Made by a program: the position numbers and the translations under genes
Source: Puniceicoccus vermicola
Lineage (GTDB): Bacteria > Verrucomicrobiota > Verrucomicrobiia > Opitutales > Puniceicoccaceae
Assembly (NCBI RefSeq): GCF_014230055.1
Contig: NZ_JACHVA010000009.1
Location: 1-48,540 of the forward strand
Length of the DNA stretch: 48,540 bases
Direction: 5' to 3'
The notes under the pieces: model-generated
Told to the model about the DNA's origin: nothing
What the model saw: the letters and a program-made list of their open reading frames with translations, nothing else
Databases searched by the model: none
Part shown: one piece after another, positions 8,302 through 33,475 of the stretch
Position numbering within the stretch: position 1 is the first letter of the stretch
How the letters are laid out: every line of letters starts with the position of its first letter

Positions 8302-10628
<2,327 letters not shown>

Positions 10629-10660
10629 ACCGATTTAGTTCTCGATCTCGAGGATTAGGT

Positions 10661-12193
<1,533 letters not shown>

Positions 12194-25109: not shown

Positions 25110-25676
25110 TTAGACCCGGAGGAGCTCCTTTTCCTTGTGCGTAACGGCCTCGTTGATCTTCTCAACGAAATCGTCGGTCGTTTTCTGAATCTCCTTTTCC
25201 ACGCGCTTCACGTCGTCTTCGGAGAGACTCTCTTCCTTCTCGGCAATCTTCAAAGCGTCCATCGCATTGCGGCGAGCCTGACGCACACTGATGCGGCCAT
25301 CCTCTGCATGCTTGTGGGCGACCTTTACCAGTTCCTGACGACGCTCTTTACTGAGCTCGGGGATGTTGAGGCGGACTAGGGCTCCGTCGACCACCGGATT
25401 GATGCCGAGGTTCGCCTTCTGCAAGGCCTTCTCCACGTCCTTGATCACCGTTTTGTCCCACGGTTGAATCTGAATCGTGCGGGCATCCGGGGTGGTGATG
25501 GCGGCAATATCGCGGAGCGGCATCGAAGAGCCATATGACGAAACCTCAATGACGATCCCTTCGACCATGGCCGGAGACGCCTTCCCCGTGTGGAGGGAAT
25601 TGAATTCCGCCAGAGTGTGTTCAAGGGCCTTTTGGGTTTCGGCAACCTGCTTCTTTTGAATCGTGTCGGTGTCCAT
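25110..25676 (-). CDS. frr: ribosome recycling factor
   Basis: RRF, with EF-G, splits post-termination ribosomes. The 188-residue product starts at ATG 25676 (MDTDTIQKKQVAETQKALEH); the open frame upstream of this is not family-like. Conserved sequence includes FNSLHTGKASPAMVEGIVIE, ITTPDARTIQIQPWDKTVI, and GALVRLNIPELSKERRQELV followed by KVAHKHAEDGRISVRQARRN. Length is normal. Unusually, pyrH and tsf are not upstream; frr heads a transcript with proB, the HAD gene and recD2. It is divergent from the LOV kinase. Confidence 0.96.
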   Translation of the reverse strand: MDTDTIQKKQVAETQKALEHTLAEFNSLHTGKASPAMVEGIVIEVSSYGSSMPLRDIAAITTPDARTIQIQPWDKTVIKDVEKALQKANLGINPVVDGALVRLNIPELSKERRQELVKVAHKHAEDGRISVRQARRNAMDALKIAEKEESLSEDDVKRVEKEIQKTTDDFVEKINEAVTHKEKELLRV

Positions 25677-25791: not shown

Positions 25792-28365
25792 ATGGCGAAA
25801 TTCTCTACAACCCGCCTCGTTCGCGAAAATGGCCCCCTCCTTCTCGCTCTGGCCCTGAGCGCTGTCTTTTGGTTGATTACCTCACTATCGAAGGAAACAT
25901 TTTATCAAAACGAGCAGGTACCTCCAGCCCTGCGAGTCGGGGGAATTGCCGCAATTTTATTTTTCGGAGTCATCCTCCAGGTCATCCTGCGGTCTCTGAG
26001 TCAGAGCAGAGCCGATCTCCGAGACGAACTCGGGTTTTTCAGCACTATTTTTGCGGAGGGCCCCACTCCCGGGCTGGTTATCGATGGAGAAAGCGGAAAG
26101 ATCATCGACGCAAATCAAGCGGCGTCCCGTTTATACGGATGGTCGATCGAAAGTCTGCGGCAAAAAAACATGATGGACCTTGCCGTCGTCAACGAGGAGG
26201 CAGTCAAAAACCGGCTTCTCGAAATATCGCAGCATAGAAGCCTCCGATTCCGGACAAAAAATTATCTCCAAAGCGGGCGAATCTGCCCTGTTGAAATTGA
26301 TGCAACCTTTCTGGATCTCAGTTCACGTAAAACTCTCGTATGCTTGGTTCGAGATTTAAGTACAGAAGAGGAGGTCCAACGTTCCCTTGAGGAGCAAAGG
26401 CTGATCACCGAAAGCCTCTTCGAATCGGCCCGGGTCGGTTACTGGGACTGGAATCTTACCACTCAACGAGTTTATCTCAGCCAACAGTTGCTGCAAATGA
26501 TCGGCATCTCCGAGAACAGCGAGAAACCGCTCCCGGCCAACTGGGAAGACCTGGTCATGGAACAAGATCTACCCAAAATGATGTCCGAATACCAAAGCCA
26601 CATCGATAGCCGGGGAGAATACCCGTTTTTCTGCGAGATTCGGTACCATCAAAAAAGTGGCAATCCGATTTGGATGATCTGCACGGGAAAAGTCATCGAG
26701 TGGGATACCGACGACCAGCCTGTTCGCATGGTCGGGTGCAACATAGACATCTCCGAGCGCAAGACCAACGAGCAGCACCTTTTTCTCGCGAACCGCGCTC
26801 TTAACTCAATTCGCGCGGGCGTCACCATTTCCAGGGCGGCGAACGACTACCCCATCCGATACATAAACCGATCCTTCGAAAACCTTACGGGCTATACTCA
26901 TGATGAGGTTATCGGGAAAAATTGCCGCTTTCTCCTCCGGGATGACTACGACCAAGAGGCCTTGACAACGGTCAGAAAGGCTCTTCGGGAGAAAACCAAC
27001 TGCCAGGTCGTTCTCAGAAACTATCGCAAGGACGGCTCCCTTTTCTGGAATCGCCTCACCATCTCACCGGTCTTCGACCACAATGGCGAATTGACCCACT
27101 TTGTAGGGACCCAAGAGGATGTCTCGAAAGAAATCGCGGCCCAACAAGAGCTCGTGCTAGCGAAAGAATCGGCCGAGCGCGCCAACCACGTCCGAGACGA
27201 GTTTTTGGCGATGATGAGCCATGAACTCCGCACGCCCTTGAATCCAATCATCGGGCTCGGTACTTTCCTACTCGATGAAACCGACGATCCCGATAAGAAG
27301 GACATGCTCAAGACGATCGTCGAATCGGGCTACCGCCAGCTCGGTTTGGTCGAAAACCTACTGTCCATCTCAGACCTCGCCAGCATGCGCCCGACGGAGA
27401 GACAACAGTCCCTCGACATTCAGGACCTGTTGGATGCGGTCATCGCGACAAACCATCGCAAGCTGAAGCCCGGAGTGAAGATCCAGACGGATATGGATCA
27501 TTGCGATCCGGAGGTCTGGATCCGCGGCACCGAAAAACACCTCGAGCAGATGCTCGATCATCTGGTCGAAAACGCCTGCAAATTCAGCGAACACGGAGTC
27601 ATCACCCTCCGGGCCTACACCGATCGACCCACCCAAGAGAATCGCAATCTGTATTTTGAAATCCAAGACCAGGGGGTCGGCATCTCGGAAGATGCCCTAG
27701 AGCGAATCTTTCGCCCCTTCGAGCAGGAGGACTCCTCCTCAAAACGAAAATTCCAAGGAGCGGGACTCGGCCTGGCGATCGCCAAAAAGATCGCCCTCAT
27801 TCTCGGAGGAGACATCACCGTCTCCAGCGAAGTAGGAGCAGGATCCCGCTTTCTCTGCCGGATCCCACTGATTGAGAAGCCGACCGACGTCGCACCTCTG
27901 CCAGAGCCGATTCAGCCCAAGCCTCGGCCCAATTCAGCGGAGACGGGACGGCCCACCATTCTCATTGTCGAAGATCAGGAGTCCAATGCCTTTTTTGTCC
28001 AAAGCTTTTTGAAGCGGAAGGAAATGTCGACGATCCTCGCCGTCGACGGAGAGATGGCTGTCGCCGAGTTCGCGAAGAACGACTGTTCCGCAATCATTCT
28101 CGATCTTCACATCCCGGTGCTGGACGGATACGAAGTCCTCAAACGCATACGGGCCACCGAAAAAGGGGAAAACACCCCAGTCATCGTGGTCACTGCCGAT
28201 GTGAATCCTGAGATCCCCGTCCGCTGCCGCGAACTCGGGGTCACCGCTTGTTTGACCAAACCGTTCGACATCAAGGAATTCTACAAAATTCTTCAGGATT
28301 CCCTCGGCGAACGACCCGATCAAAGCGAAACTCCGGAGCCCTCTCGTTCGCAACTCAAGGAGTAA
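25792..28365 (+). CDS. LOV-domain hybrid histidine kinase with C-terminal receiver
   Basis: A membrane-linked sensor kinase of 857 residues. Two hydrophobic segments (about 15-32 and 48-66) are followed by PAS1 (about 82-190), PAS2 (about 203-325) and PAS3 (about 335-446). PAS3 is a LOV domain: GKNCRFL holds the photoactive Cys (C378), LRNYRKDG and LFWNR hold the flavin-contacting Asn residues (N410, N420), and FVGTQEDVS holds Gln441. The Gln that usually follows NCRFL is Leu382. The kinase has H477 in FLAMMSHELRTPLNPIIG, an N-box (HLVENACKFSE) and G-boxes (DQGVGIS, GAGLGLAIAKK). A receiver domain (about 721-838) has D771 in ILDLHIP and K823 in TKPFD. Blue-light sensing is inferred from the conserved LOV residues. 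No separate output regulator is adjacent. Confidence 0.92.
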   Translation: MAKFSTTRLVRENGPLLLALALSAVFWLITSLSKETFYQNEQVPPALRVGGIAAILFFGVILQVILRSLSQSRADLRDELGFFSTIFAEGPTPGLVIDGESGKIIDANQAASRLYGWSIESLRQKNMMDLAVVNEEAVKNRLLEISQHRSLRFRTKNYLQSGRICPVEIDATFLDLSSRKTLVCLVRDLSTEEEVQRSLEEQRLITESLFESARVGYWDWNLTTQRVYLSQQLLQMIGISENSEKPLPANWEDLVMEQDLPKMMSEYQSHIDSRGEYPFFCEIRYHQKSGNPIWMICTGKVIEWDTDDQPVRMVGCNIDISERKTNEQHLFLANRALNSIRAGVTISRAANDYPIRYINRSFENLTGYTHDEVIGKNCRFLLRDDYDQEALTTVRKALREKTNCQVVLRNYRKDGSLFWNRLTISPVFDHNGELTHFVGTQEDVSKEIAAQQELVLAKESAERANHVRDEFLAMMSHELRTPLNPIIGLGTFLLDETDDPDKKDMLKTIVESGYRQLGLVENLLSISDLASMRPTERQQSLDIQDLLDAVIATNHRKLKPGVKIQTDMDHCDPEVWIRGTEKHLEQMLDHLVENACKFSEHGVITLRAYTDRPTQENRNLYFEIQDQGVGISEDALERIFRPFEQEDSSSKRKFQGAGLGLAIAKKIALILGGDITVSSEVGAGSRFLCRIPLIEKPTDVAPLPEPIQPKPRPNSAETGRPTILIVEDQESNAFFVQSFLKRKEMSTILAVDGEMAVAEFAKNDCSAIILDLHIPVLDGYEVLKRIRATEKGENTPVIVVTADVNPEIPVRCRELGVTACLTKPFDIKEFYKILQDSLGERPDQSETPEPSRSQLKE

Positions 28366-28374
28366 TCCGGCGCC

Positions 28375-29208
28375 CTACTTCTCTTGGGGAAGCAAGCCAA
28401 AGTGCCGGCACCCCTCTAGCACTCCGCTGGTGGCGAAAGCCTTCGCCGCATAAAACCGCTCTGAAGCCCCATTGGCCTTCATCTCTTGGGCAACCTTCTC
28501 CACCAGCTCGGAAGCGGCGTTTCCTACTGCAATCGACCGAAATCCAGCCACGAGCGCCGCATAATCATTCCCGGAATCCCCGGAAAAGACCAGCTCCTCC
28601 GGTCGAAAATCCGCGTGGGTCGCGAGCCAAATCAGGGCGTAGGCTTTCGAAACTCCAGCCGGGAGGAGATCGAGCAATCCATTCTGATTAAAAGGATCGA
28701 CGCTTCCCATCGCCAAAAAGGGAAGCCCCTTTTCTTCGCAAGCGCGTCCCATTTCCCGAACCAACTCATCTACGCGCGAGTTGTCGGCAAAGTAGCTAAT
28801 CTTAAAGGGACCTTGGCTTTCTGCCCCCTGCAACTCCAATCCATCGATCCCCGAAACCGCCTCCTCGACATCAGTGCGGTCGATCCCTCCCGACTTTTCG
28901 GAGAGGTGGTCGACATAGGGCTGGTAAAGCTCATAGCCGCCCCCCTTCGCCCGATAGATCGAAGTGCCGACATCGCAAATCAACCATTGAGGCTGCGGGA
29001 GGCCGAACTCCTCAATCGCCTCTAAAACCGACTCGAAATGGCGGCCGGTGGCAAAGACGACTTCTCTGCCCCCACTCTCGAGGCCCTTCTTCAGGATTTC
29101 CAGGTCTTCTCGATTCTCCGGACAATCCGGTAAAGGGATCAGAGTCCCGTCGAGGTCCGTGCCGAGAACTCGCACATCCAAATTAGATTCAAGGTTGAAA
29201 AGATTCAT
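28375..29208 (-). CDS. sucrose-6-phosphate phosphatase-like HAD hydrolase
   Basis: A 277-residue HAD subfamily IIB phosphatase of the sucrose-phosphate phosphatase (SPP) type. Motif I is LGTDLDGTLIPLP, motif II is FATGRHFESV, and motif IV is VFSGDSGNDYAALVAG; the cap has CDVGTSIY and GPFKISYFADN. The likely reaction is sucrose-6F-phosphate to sucrose. It is divergent from the sucrose-phosphate synthase gene with only 52 bases between starts, which supports the assignment. Mannosyl-3-phosphoglycerate or other sugar-phosphate phosphatases are alternatives. The synthase next door carries its own SPP domain, so this is a second copy. Confidence 0.85.
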   Translation of the reverse strand: MNLFNLESNLDVRVLGTDLDGTLIPLPDCPENREDLEILKKGLESGGREVVFATGRHFESVLEAIEEFGLPQPQWLICDVGTSIYRAKGGGYELYQPYVDHLSEKSGGIDRTDVEEAVSGIDGLELQGAESQGPFKISYFADNSRVDELVREMGRACEEKGLPFLAMGSVDPFNQNGLLDLLPAGVSKAYALIWLATHADFRPEELVFSGDSGNDYAALVAGFRSIAVGNAASELVEKVAQEMKANGASERFYAAKAFATSGVLEGCRHFGLLPQEK

Positions 29209-29223
29209 TCGACACAGAATAGT
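29195..29223 (+). promoter_or_regulatory. candidate promoter for sucrose-phosphate synthase
   Basis: TTGAAA (29195-29200) and AATAGT (29218-29223) are separated by 17 bases, about 37 bases before the synthase ATG. It overlaps the first codons of the divergent phosphatase gene. Match is moderate (5/6 and 4/6). Confidence 0.35.
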
Positions 29224-29260
29224 GAATGAGCGTTCCCTTCGGAACCTCTAAATTACCACT

Positions 29261-31438
29261 ATGAGCCAGAAAAAAGGAATTCGAATCGCACTTCTCAGTC
29301 TCCACGGTCTGATCCGTGGCGAAAATCTCGAGCTGGGACGTGACGAGGACACCGGCGGCCAAACAAAATATGTTGTCGAGCTAGCCCGCGCTCTTGCCGA
29401 GCGCCCCGATGTTGCCCGGGTCGATCTGATCACCCGGCAGATCATAGACGATCGCGTCTCCGACGACTACGCCCAACCGGAGGAATCCATCGGGAACAAT
29501 GCCTACATCATCCGGATTCCCTTTGGGCCCCGACGCTACCTCTACAAGACCAAGCTCTGGCCCTACATGGAGGTATTTGTCGACCAATGCCTCAACTACT
29601 TTCAGCGGAACCGCGCCGTTCCCGATATCATCCACGGTCACTACGCCGACGCAGGATACGGAGGAGCCCAACTGGCTAGACTTCTCGGCATTCCCTTCGT
29701 CTTCACCGGTCACTCTCTTGGCCGAGTCAAGAAAGAGCGCCTCATCGAAAGCGGAGTCGCGCAAAAGAAGATTGAATCGAACTATCGCATCACCCGCCGT
29801 ATCGAGGCCGAAGAATTCGCTCTCGAAACCTGCTCGCTGATCATCACCAGCACCCACCAGGAAGTCCGGCAGCAATACGAGAAATATGACCACTACATTC
29901 CGGAACGGATGGAAGTGATCCCCCCCGGAGTGAATCTCGAATCGTTCCACCCGCCGCGGGAGGACGACGAGGAGCCCGAGATCGCCCAGAAGATCAATCT
30001 CTTCTTCGACGATCCCTCGAAGCCGATGATCGTCGCCATGGCCCGTCCCGACGAGCGTAAGAACCTCGAACGCCTCGTCCTCACCTACGGGGAATCTCCC
30101 CAACTTCAGAGGGAGGCCAATCTCGTTCTCATCATGGGAAGCCGGACGGACATCCGCGAGATGCCCTCCGGCCAGCGCGCGGTCCTGAACAACATTCTCA
30201 CCCTCATCGACGTTTACGACCTTTACGGCAAGGTGGCCTATCCGAAGCACCACCGCTCAGATGACGTCCCAGAGATCTACCGGATGATCACCCGCAACCG
30301 CGGTGTCTTCATCAACCCGGCCATGACCGAGCCCTTCGGGCTGACGCTGCTCGAGGCGGCGGCCAGCGGTGTGCCCATCGTCGCTACCAACGATGGGGGT
30401 CCGAGCGACATCATTGCCAACTGTAAGAACGGGATCCTCATCGACCCATTCGATACAGATTCGATTGAGAAAGCCCTACTCCGCGCTCTCACCGAGCCGG
30501 AGACTTGGAACGAATGGTCGCGCACCGGTTACGACAACGTCCACAAATACTATTCCTGGCAGCGCCACGCCGAGCGATACATTCGCGACGTGAACGAGGT
30601 CCTTGACGTCTTCAAGAGCTCACCGTCGATCACCAACCGTAAGAAGACCCGCCCTCTGACCGGAGTGGACCGGATCGTAATCGCCGACATCGACAACACC
30701 CTCACCGGCAACGATGAGGCGATGCGCGAGTTCTTCGACCTTCTCGAAAACACCGAGACCGGCGTCGGATTCGGAATCGCGACGGGCCGCCGCTTCGAAG
30801 AAGTGATGCGCCTAATGGACGAGCACCACCTGCCACAGCCGGAGGTCATCATCACCTCCGTCGGCACCGAGATGTATTACGGGAAAAACCTGACGCCGGA
30901 CGCCAGCTGGCGGAAGCACATCGACTTCCGCTGGGAACCGGAAAAGGTCCGAGCTGCTCTCGATTCGATCAAGGGACTATACCCGCAAGAGGAGCACGAA
31001 CAATCCACCTACAAGATTAGCTACGGAATCGATTTCTCCGAATCTCCGAGCGTTGCCACAATCCGCCGAATCCTTCGTGAAAACGGAATCCGGGTGAAGG
31101 TCATCGTCTCGCTGGGCATGTTCCTCGACATCATTCCCGCCCGAGCTGGCAGTGGACTCTGCATCCGGCACATGGCCTTTAAGTGGGGCTTCCCCCTCGA
31201 GCATATCCTCGTCGCCGGAGACTCGGGCAACGACGAAGAAATGCTCGCCGGAAACACCCTGGGCGTGGTCGTGGGGAACTACAGCAAGGAGCTGGAGAAA
31301 CTTCGCAAGTATCCACGCATCTTCTTCGCCGAGAAAGAGCATGCAGCCGGTATCGTGGAAGGCATTGAATACTACAACTTCCTCGACAAGATCCAGATTC
31401 CCAACGACCGCAACGTCGAACCGGAACAGTCAGAGTAA
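29261..31438 (+). CDS. two-domain sucrose-phosphate synthase/phosphatase
   Basis: A 725-residue enzyme predicted to join UDP- or ADP-glucose and fructose-6-phosphate and then remove the phosphate to give sucrose. The GT4 domain (about 1-455) has SLHGLIRGENLELGRDEDTG, HGHYADAGYGG, FTGHSLGRVK and the donor-site E-X7-E in AMTEPFGLTLLEAAASG (E357, E365). The SPP domain (about 470-705) has DIDNTLTG with both aspartates of motif I (D476, D478), ATGRRFEEV, and LVAGDSGNDEEMLAG. Because motif I is intact, the phosphatase domain is probably active, unlike that reported for some cyanobacterial synthases. It lies 78 bases upstream of the amylosucrase gene, likely one transcript. Confidence 0.93.
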   Translation: MSQKKGIRIALLSLHGLIRGENLELGRDEDTGGQTKYVVELARALAERPDVARVDLITRQIIDDRVSDDYAQPEESIGNNAYIIRIPFGPRRYLYKTKLWPYMEVFVDQCLNYFQRNRAVPDIIHGHYADAGYGGAQLARLLGIPFVFTGHSLGRVKKERLIESGVAQKKIESNYRITRRIEAEEFALETCSLIITSTHQEVRQQYEKYDHYIPERMEVIPPGVNLESFHPPREDDEEPEIAQKINLFFDDPSKPMIVAMARPDERKNLERLVLTYGESPQLQREANLVLIMGSRTDIREMPSGQRAVLNNILTLIDVYDLYGKVAYPKHHRSDDVPEIYRMITRNRGVFINPAMTEPFGLTLLEAAASGVPIVATNDGGPSDIIANCKNGILIDPFDTDSIEKALLRALTEPETWNEWSRTGYDNVHKYYSWQRHAERYIRDVNEVLDVFKSSPSITNRKKTRPLTGVDRIVIADIDNTLTGNDEAMREFFDLLENTETGVGFGIATGRRFEEVMRLMDEHHLPQPEVIITSVGTEMYYGKNLTPDASWRKHIDFRWEPEKVRAALDSIKGLYPQEEHEQSTYKISYGIDFSESPSVATIRRILRENGIRVKVIVSLGMFLDIIPARAGSGLCIRHMAFKWGFPLEHILVAGDSGNDEEMLAGNTLGVVVGNYSKELEKLRKYPRIFFAEKEHAAGIVEGIEYYNFLDKIQIPNDRNVEPEQSE

Positions 31439-31516
31439 TCCAAACTGATTGGATCATCGCCCACGCACAAGCGAAGCATTACGAACCGCTAAAGAAATAG
31501 ACTGCCGGTGAATTTG

Positions 31517-33475
31517 ATGGAAGAAAGCCGTCTCGAGTACGAGGCGACCCGTTCCCTTCGACGTATCCGTCCCAAGATCACGAGACGCATTGAGGAAGAA
31601 ACTCAAAGCGATCTTGAGAGGGCGCGATTGCACGAGACGATCGACTATCGTCTCGACGAGCACTGGCTCACCCTATTCCGCCTCCTCTACCAGCTCTACG
31701 GACATCACTACGATTTCTTCTACTACTTGGAAGATATCGCGCTGACGGCCGTCGACTCTTGGCTCGCACGCCCGCGAGATCTGAAGGAGCTGGATCAGCG
31801 GCGTGAGAACGATCCGGGATGGTATCTTTCCGAACGAATGGTCGGAGGATCCCTCTACGTCGACCTCTTCAGTGGAGATTTGGTCAAATTGCGCGATGCG
31901 ATTCCCTACTTGCGGGACTTGGGCCTGACCTACCTTCACCTCATGCCTCTCTTCGCCTCCCGCCCAGGAAATAGCGATGGGGGCTATGCCATCAGTGATT
32001 ACCGAGCCGTCGACCCACGGTTGGGCACGATTGAAGATCTTCAAGCTCTCGCCAACGATCTTCGGGAAGTCGGCATCTCTCTGGTTCTCGACTTCGTATT
32101 CAATCACACCGCTGACGACCACTTGTGGGCGATCCGTGCGCAGGAGGGTGAACAGGAGTTTCTCGACTATTACCGGACCTTTCCCGACCACTCGATCCCG
32201 AGCCAATACGAGAGGACTCTACGCGAGATCTTCCCATCCGTGCGTCGGGGTAACTTCACGTGGGATGAAACCTTGAAGCGTTGGGTTTGGACGACTTTCA
32301 ATAGCTTCCAGTGGGATCTCAATTACGACAACCCGGAGGTCTTCCGCGCCATGGCCTCCGAGATGCTCTTCCTGGCCAACACCGGAGTCGAAATTCTCCG
32401 CCTCGACGCGGTCGCCTTCATCTGGAAACAGATGGGCACCACCTGCGAAAACCTTCCCGAGGCGCACCTTTTGATCCAAGCGTTCAATGCGGTCTGTCGG
32501 ATCGCCGCCCCGGGGCTCGTCTTCAAATCAGAGGCAATCGTCCACCCGGACGAGGTCGTCAAATACATCGACGCCAAAGAGTGTCAGATCTCCTATAACC
32601 CGACCTTTATGGCCCTCCTCTGGGAGGCCATGGCTACCCGTGAGACCAAACTTCTCGAACGCTCGATCTCACACCGCTTTCAGCTGCCCCCGGGCACGAC
32701 TTGGCTCAATTACCTCCGCAGTCACGATGACATCGGATGGTCCTTTGACAACGGAGACTGCTGGGAGGTAGGGATCAATCCCGACGGGCATCGCGACTTC
32801 CTCAACCGGTTCTACACCGCCCGCTTCCCGGGAAGTTTTGCCCGCGGAGTCCCATTCCAGCACAACGTCGATACGGGGGACATGCGCATCTGCGGCACCA
32901 TGTCCTCCCTCGCCGGCCTTGAAGAAGCGATTACGGAAAAGGATCCGGCCCTCCTGGATATGGCCGTGCGCCGTATGCGCATGGTTTACGGCGTCCTCTG
33001 TGCCGCCACGGGCATCCCCCTGATTTTCATGGGCGAGGAATGGGGCCTCCTCAATGACTACGACTTTGAGAAAGACCCGGACAAAGGGGACGACAGCCGC
33101 TGGGTTCACCGAGTCAAGATGGACTGGAGCCTCACACGCGAACTGAAGAAAAAGAAGTCCGTCCCCAAAGAGGTCTTCCTCACTCTTCAGCAACTGTTCT
33201 CCACGCGAAAAGAGATCCCGGCCTTCCGCGGCAATCGGATGCGTTTGCTCTACATGGTCAATCCTCATGTTCTCGGCTTCATCCGTTGGCACGACGCCAG
33301 CTTTGCCGCCATCCTCGCCAATTTTTCCGAGAAACCGCAGGAGATCGATCTTTCCGAACTCCGCACGATCGGCATGGGTCACTTCGTGAAGGACGCCCTC
33401 TCCGACCGCGAATTCAGTACGCGTAAGCTCGCCAAACTCGAGCCCTACGACCTTCTCTGGCTCGGAGAAGAATAA
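31517..33475 (+). CDS. amylosucrase (GH13 subfamily 4)
   Basis: Transfers glucose from sucrose to a growing alpha-1,4-glucan, releasing fructose. The 652-residue protein has a helical N-terminal domain. The GH13 barrel follows with [32 protein letters not shown], the nucleophile Asp in [16 protein letters not shown] (about D297), the acid/base Glu in [14 protein letters not shown] (about E339) and SHDDIGWSF. The segment [20 protein letters not shown] is characteristic of amylosucrases. ATG 31517 is preferred; GTG at 31508 would add three residues. Length matches the family (about 630-650). Behind the sucrose synthase it suggests sucrose is a route to glycogen-like glucan, as in some methylotroph sps-spp-ams clusters. 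Confidence 0.94.

Follow-up and report, generated by a model that had tools for sequence, protein, structure and literature searches.

A hybrid histidine kinase of Puniceicoccus vermicola carries, as its third PAS domain, a LOV domain with one rare substitution in the flavin pocket (Leu382), and we consider it reasonably probable that this putatively membrane-anchored kinase uses the domain as a working, FMN-binding and probably fast-cycling sensor of blue light. The gene lies in the window, by which we mean the whole stretch of 48,540 nucleotides of contig NZ_JACHVA010000009.1 that was analysed, and its features are collected in Table 1. Pfam and hydropathy agree with the initial annotation in assigning to the protein two membrane segments, two further PAS domains and a C-terminal receiver, and the domain order of the 857-aa kinase is two predicted membrane helices, PAS, PAS, LOV, HisKA, HATPase and receiver. 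The two hydrophobic segments are separated by a short loop in the hydropathy profile, and the kinase is probably anchored in the membrane. The features of a hybrid histidine kinase are all present, namely the HisKA H box, the HATPase N and G boxes and the acceptor Asp of the C-terminal receiver, whose motifs are complete (Asp771 plus its acidic, Thr and Lys partners). A fold of the whole 857-aa protein computed without an alignment had a mean pLDDT of 38.6 and supports none of the claims made here.

Table 1. Features of the LOV hybrid histidine kinase gene and its two neighbours, in window coordinates.
Feature	Position	Strand	Basis
LOV hybrid histidine kinase gene	25792..28365	+	ORF, 857 aa; Pfam domains
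Predicted membrane segment 1, residues about 14-32	25831..25887	+	Kyte-Doolittle window-19 mean 2.02
Predicted membrane segment 2, residues about 48-67	25933..25992	+	Kyte-Doolittle window-19 mean 2.21
PAS domain 1, residues about 82-199, non-LOV	26035..26388	+	sensory_box match, YtvA_fam match absent; PAS_8 stretch 83-125
PAS domain 2 (PAS_3 fold), residues 227-316, non-LOV	26470..26739	+	Pfam; YtvA_fam/BluLightHisKinLov matches absent
LOV domain, residues 335-446	26794..27129	+	phmmer, pocket residues, AlphaFold model, Foldseek, NCBIfam
Codon TGC, putative adduct-forming Cys378 (= YtvA C62)	26923..26925	+	translation/alignment
Codon CTC, Leu382 at YtvA Q66 site	26935..26937	+	Gln in 98/103 Cys-bearing LOV domains
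J-alpha/DHp linker, Asp443 to phospho-acceptor His477 (34 residues)	27118..27222	+	residue spacing; model helix
HisKA, residues 468-529, His477 in SHELRTP	27193..27378	+	Pfam, H box
HATPase_c, residues 580-693, N/G1/F/G2 boxes	27529..27870	+	Pfam, motifs
Receiver domain, residues 723-834, acceptor Asp771	27958..28293	+	Pfam, motifs
Ribosome recycling factor frr, divergent neighbour	25110..25676	-	PF01765 3.9e-59
Sucrose-6-phosphate phosphatase (S6PP), convergent neighbour	28375..29208	-	PF05116 9.2e-55

By every sequence and predicted-fold test run, residues 335-446 are a LOV domain inside a hybrid histidine kinase, as the initial annotation had read them. A phmmer comparison with PDB sequences returned 156 distinct sequences at E<=0.001, a match far above chance at the sequence level; among the best 60 of the 156, the first was the short LOV protein PF5-LOV (7r5n, E=1.6e-32), the next 8c05 (1.4e-30), and these were accompanied by Pseudomonas short LOV proteins, phototropins, aureochromes, YtvA and, lower down, a Brucella LOV kinase. 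The two computational checks proposed with the initial annotation, a comparison of the domain with LOV profiles and a structure prediction, gave concordant results. Among the NCBIfam profiles, YtvA_fam (NF052652) scored the domain at 134.6 bits and BluLightHisKinLov (NF052306) at 113.6 bits, and neither matched PAS 1 or PAS 2 of the same protein at E<=0.001. The equivalog cut-offs, which are set for whole proteins (250 bits for NF052652, 450 bits for NF052306), were missed, the full protein reaching 142.1 bits with NF052652; the kinase shares a LOV domain with both families and is an equivalog of neither. The AlphaFold2 model of the domain, built from 81 sequences (the window's domain and all 80 named loci), had a mean pLDDT of 94.3 and shows a PAS fold whose strands and helices follow the LOV-type order. 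Foldseek gave 589 matches to this model at E<=0.001, of which the best 50 were all LOV structures, headed by PF5-LOV (TMq 0.92, 44% identity). YtvA_fam also scores relatives that lack the Cys (134.3, 109.2 and 77.1 bits for loci L021, L022 and L002), and therefore a profile score alone is no proof of photochemistry; the putative photochemistry is argued from the residues, with the profile scores left aside.

Six of the seven pocket residues checked are kept (Cys378, Arg379, Arg395, Asn410, Asn420 and Gln441). These comprise the adduct-forming Cys on helix E (C378), two Arg corresponding to YtvA R63 and R79 (R379 and R395), for which a role in binding the FMN phosphate is described (PMC3836802), the Asn pair (YtvA N94 and N104; N410 and N420) and the flipping Gln (YtvA Q123; Q441). 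The Cys in GKNCRFL, the two Asn and Gln441 thus stand in the translation where the initial annotation had placed them, and so does its one exception, Leu382 in place of the Gln that follows NCRFL. This is the last letter of the consensus GXNCRFLQ (YtvA Q66), which we treat as a consensus letter and not as a defining feature because EL222 functions without Gln there. Glu372 and Lys413 are also present and, by counting positions, match YtvA E56 and K97, which form a salt bridge described as having to stay conserved (PMC4041573). Arg348 is rare, as 75 of 80 relatives carry Asp or Glu at this site and only one carries Arg.

Leu at the Q66 site is exceptional among the domains compared. The 148 loci yielded 103 distinct LOV domains that bear the Cys, and in these the site is Gln in 98, His in two, Pro in two and Leu in one, the domain studied here. 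The named share of this set (74 Gln, two Pro and one His in 77 domains) is biased towards Gln, since one of the two search patterns contained Gln and 80 of 592 confirmed loci were kept; the other 26 domains, retrieved by querying with the domain itself or with alignment A1, have Gln in 24, His in one and Leu in one. Alignment A2 (81 rows, two of them without the adduct Cys) reads Gln in 76 rows, Pro in two, and Leu (the domain studied here), His and Val in one each. Among the open-licence papers searched, none describes a natural Leu here and none treats EL222 A79Q.

The expected consequence of Leu382 can be argued by analogy with characterized LOV proteins. In YtvA, Q66 is counted among the residues coordinating the FMN ribityl chain and phosphate (PMC3836802), and N94 bonds to it (PMC4161478). 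EL222 has Ala79 at this site, which we confirmed from PDB sequence 3p7n (NCRFLAG), and this Ala is associated with solvent (water) access and non-Arrhenius decay of the adduct (PMC4161478); EL222 recovers in about 30 s compared with about 6000 s for YtvA (PMC4428443), and YtvA Q66H recovers in 753 s compared with 2100 s for the wild type in wet E. coli cells (PMC4161478). Leu382 would lack the hydrogen bonds that the usual helix-E Gln makes near flavin N1 and the ribityl chain, and because it cannot make them, adduct decay is expected to be faster than in YtvA, as in EL222. The suggestion in the initial annotation that Leu382 could alter photocycle speed fits both EL222 and YtvA Q66H. Its other suggestion, an altered signal relay, appears less likely because the relay glutamine (YtvA Q123) is kept as Gln441; the receptors without Q123 treated in PMC9098866 concern this other glutamine. 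However, in EcFbFP, a fluorescent protein derived from YtvA, Q66L lost function while Q123L kept it (PMC4041573), and therefore flavin binding itself comes into question, such that Leu382 may threaten the binding of the cofactor as well as its kinetics. By these analogies, fast cycling is probably the first expectation and failure to hold the flavin the second.

The chief rival to a working sensor is thus a degenerate LOV domain, in which Leu382 abolished or greatly weakened flavin binding, so that the domain is now a mere structural spacer of PAS fold or has another ligand, and the kinase senses through its other PAS domains or its membrane part. The loss of function of EcFbFP Q66L, the sole Leu in 103 Cys-bearing domains, a long end branch in the LOV tree and Arg348 count for it and against a working LOV domain, and the last two could reflect relaxed constraint. 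On the other side, the six remaining pocket residues, including both phosphate-binding Arg, are intact, which would be surprising in a domain that had lost its flavin long ago, and EL222 tolerates the absence of Gln at the site. The working sensor is further favoured by LOV structures as the nearest folds, the salt-bridge pair, the linker register, the kinase motifs and a free-standing HPt protein in the genome. We regard degeneration as a serious but unlikely explanation. A sensor of flavin redox state or oxygen seems less likely again; in this reading FMN is bound, the domain responds mainly to flavin reduction (to the neutral semiquinone or hydroquinone) and light is secondary. Signalling by the neutral semiquinone is possible for LOV proteins even when the Cys is missing (PMC4682037), and a polar-to-apolar change near N1 could alter the redox behaviour of the flavin. 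Against this reading, Cys378 is present here but missing from the natural LOV-like redox relatives treated in PMC4682037, and a scan of ten neighbouring proteins revealed no redox partner. It is very improbable that an error of sequencing or assembly hides a canonical Gln: although the assembly is in 143 contigs, the frame is open throughout, and both Gln codons (CAA and CAG) differ from CTC at two positions, the His codon CAC at one, so that one wrong base in a Gln codon would not yield Leu382.

For the working sensor, the proposed route is that blue light would drive Cys378 to form a C4a adduct with the flavin, that the resulting N5 protonation would be read by Gln441 and relayed along the in-register C-terminal helix to the DHp helix bearing His477, and that phosphate would then pass to receiver Asp771 and, via a separate HPt protein, to an unlinked regulator. 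The J-alpha helix begins at residue 120 of the 138-aa AlphaFold model, and Asp443, in a DIT-like motif, lies 34 residues from His477. A recognisable HisKA H box was found within 75 residues of the LOV Asp in 17 of 99 loci (this kinase included), the remaining 82 having no motif close by, another output or a motif unreadable by the search pattern. The Asp-His distance is 20, 27, 34, 41, 48 or 55 in 14 of these 17 (all 7n+6) and 50 in the other three (7n+1). The register of the kinase with the main 7n+6 class shows, as far as residue spacing goes, an intact PAS-to-kinase junction; such spacing neither separates LOV from other PAS inputs nor gives the sign of a light effect. Reading an on or off response from linker length was considered and rejected, as the YF1 rule applies to the 7n and 7n+1 linkers of its own kinase and the phase here differs. 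We take the Asp-His spacing of YF1 to be 36, compared with 34 here.

The view in the initial annotation that no dedicated output regulator is adjacent stands, a scan of 16 other proteins of the window having revealed none. Two HPt matches occur in the genome, one in a free-standing protein (open frame of 135 aa, contig C143) and one within a 1110-aa frame (contig C126), and the free-standing protein is the natural candidate for the phosphorelay. A functional link of this solo gene with its neighbours was considered and dropped, since neither of the two neighbours scanned has a Pfam match and a repeat-rich gap lies on one side. Upstream of the gene (L181:4140-4900, contig C143), several direct copies of a repeat of about 140-150 bases (GAGAGCTGGAAGCTCTCGCTACTTT) were recognised by eye. 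A small membrane protein without a Pfam match is encoded nearby (L181:3736-4140), and may resemble a lycopene-cyclase type protein. Among other light-related proteins, the genome has a photolyase-family protein, and BLUF as a second blue-light receptor gave no match at E<=0.001.

In a tree of 106 LOV domains, 12 rows of the host's order fall in one starred clade (97/86) and the LOV domain of the kinase lies outside it; no starred set contains this domain, its end branch is 0.7 against a median of 0.3, and it pairs, unstarred (80/86), with a Lamprobacter LOV domain. LOV-bearing histidine kinases from the same order (L008-L012, L014 and L016-L019, architecture judged by eye) reach 56% LOV identity to it and differ in keeping Gln at the Q66 site. 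Several other loci depart from the usual active site. L021 (1528-1821; genome G125, same order) has Ala for the adduct Cys (NARFLQ) and Cys at the flipping-Gln site (GTCTD), possibly a swapped active site; L022, L023 and L024 of family f21 (genomes G137, G055 and G023) have Ser for Cys (GQDSLFLQ) but retain the two Gln, and their open frames are 1155-1209 aa long. In Undibacterium curvum (L100:4001-4372; 52% identity to the window's LOV domain), the LOV-like domain has lost all three residues together, with Gly in place of the Cys, Val in place of Q66 (GREGRFLVRDD) and Ile in place of Q123. In the Cys-bearing Nostoc loci L090 and L103, which read CAFLP, Ala replaces R63, Pro replaces Q66, Gln replaces R79 and His replaces Q123.

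Within the family the gene is restricted to a single species as far as the genomes compared go. The kinase gene is flanked by frr and the S6PP phosphatase gene, and beyond the latter come genes for a sucrose-phosphate synthase fusion and for an alpha-amylase-family protein. The syntenic site of the sister genome (G002) has frr, phosphatase and synthase, at 87%, 69% and 90% protein identity, and no kinase between them, and therefore either this species gained the gene or its sister lost it. In two further genomes (G003 and G001), frr is present and the kinase absent from the stretches examined. The window LOV is the only one found in the four family genomes, no LOV match being obtained in the other three at E<=1e-16; one alignment A1 match in the sister genome reads SPRIF, without Cys. 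Searched in full against the four family genomes at E<=1e-80, the protein has one non-self match, 29% identical, and no full-length orthologue; residues 1-325 gave partial matches only (at most 40%) in the 372 genomes of the order, and a full-protein scan of the genome contig collection returned 0 relatives. Foreign origin by base composition was considered; the GC content of the gene (0.537) is the lowest of 16 window genes measured (0.541-0.599 in the others), a gap too small to decide. A scan gave 0 promoter-like sites (shuffle mean 1.4) and eight terminator-like sites (shuffle mean 3.8, sd 2.0), all within the gene, and the repeats inside it are short and not informative. Elsewhere in the window, the sucrose cluster (28375-33475) has S6PP both as a free phosphatase and, in a second copy of the domain, fused to a sucrose-phosphate synthase-like protein, together with an alpha-amylase-family enzyme, and 8302-12193 encodes two ATP-synthase alpha/beta-family subunits, the first of which (8302-9726) matches a V/A-type C-terminal domain.

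The initial annotation had held a blue-light input to be notable for this group, a view that the distribution does not support: 73 of 372 genomes of the order match alignment A1 at E<=1e-25, and at least 22 of the 372, its own included, carry a Cys-bearing LOV domain, a lower bound that comes from inspecting 30 loci of the A1 search. A search of the open-licence literature for LOV domains in the Opitut group found nothing related. A 2014 survey listed 1390 LOV proteins in bacteria, and histidine kinases made up roughly half of this number (PMC4844311).

Each of the characterized systems resembles the kinase in part. EL222 of Erythrobacter litoralis, a LOV-HTH protein, likewise lacks Gln at the Q66 site and is the precedent for function, but it carries Ala rather than Leu, a DNA-binding HTH output instead of a kinase, and no membrane part. 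The Pseudomonas short LOV proteins (PF5-LOV, PpSB1 and PpSB2) are nearest in solved sequence and fold but have no effector domain; the site is Gln in all four aligned chains (Pseudomonas 7r5n, 6gg9 and 8a33, and the cyclase 8c05). The engineered LOV-FixL kinases YF1 and SB2F1 (4gcz, 8a3u), in which LOV is joined via a helical linker to DHp, offer a model of the relay, but lack a receiver, extra PAS domains and a membrane part, and their linker phase is another. By their entry names, 6rhg and related chains are LOV domains of multi-sensor hybrid histidine kinases, but they are isolated domains of 113 residues, so that the likeness is limited to LOV; 6ywr, by its Foldseek entry name, is CagFbFP of Chloroflexus aggregans.

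The class of LOV kinases is well described, and what is new here is one rare pocket substitution. We would only tentatively go so far as to propose a natural LOV domain whose flavin pocket has been rebuilt around Leu at the Q66 site, giving either an unusually fast photoreceptor for bright light only or a LOV domain turned into a sensor of flavin redox state; it would act alongside two further PAS inputs in a hybrid kinase that is anchored in the membrane and found in a single species of the family. This we hold to be rather doubtful. The laboratory data conflict on the loss of the helix-E Gln, as Ala is natural in EL222 and Leu lost function in EcFbFP, and the kinase is a natural test of this one residue: it has the Leu that EcFbFP did not tolerate, while the rest of the pocket is intact. 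The protein could reveal how a LOV domain makes up for such a change, or how a photoreceptor starts losing its light sensing.
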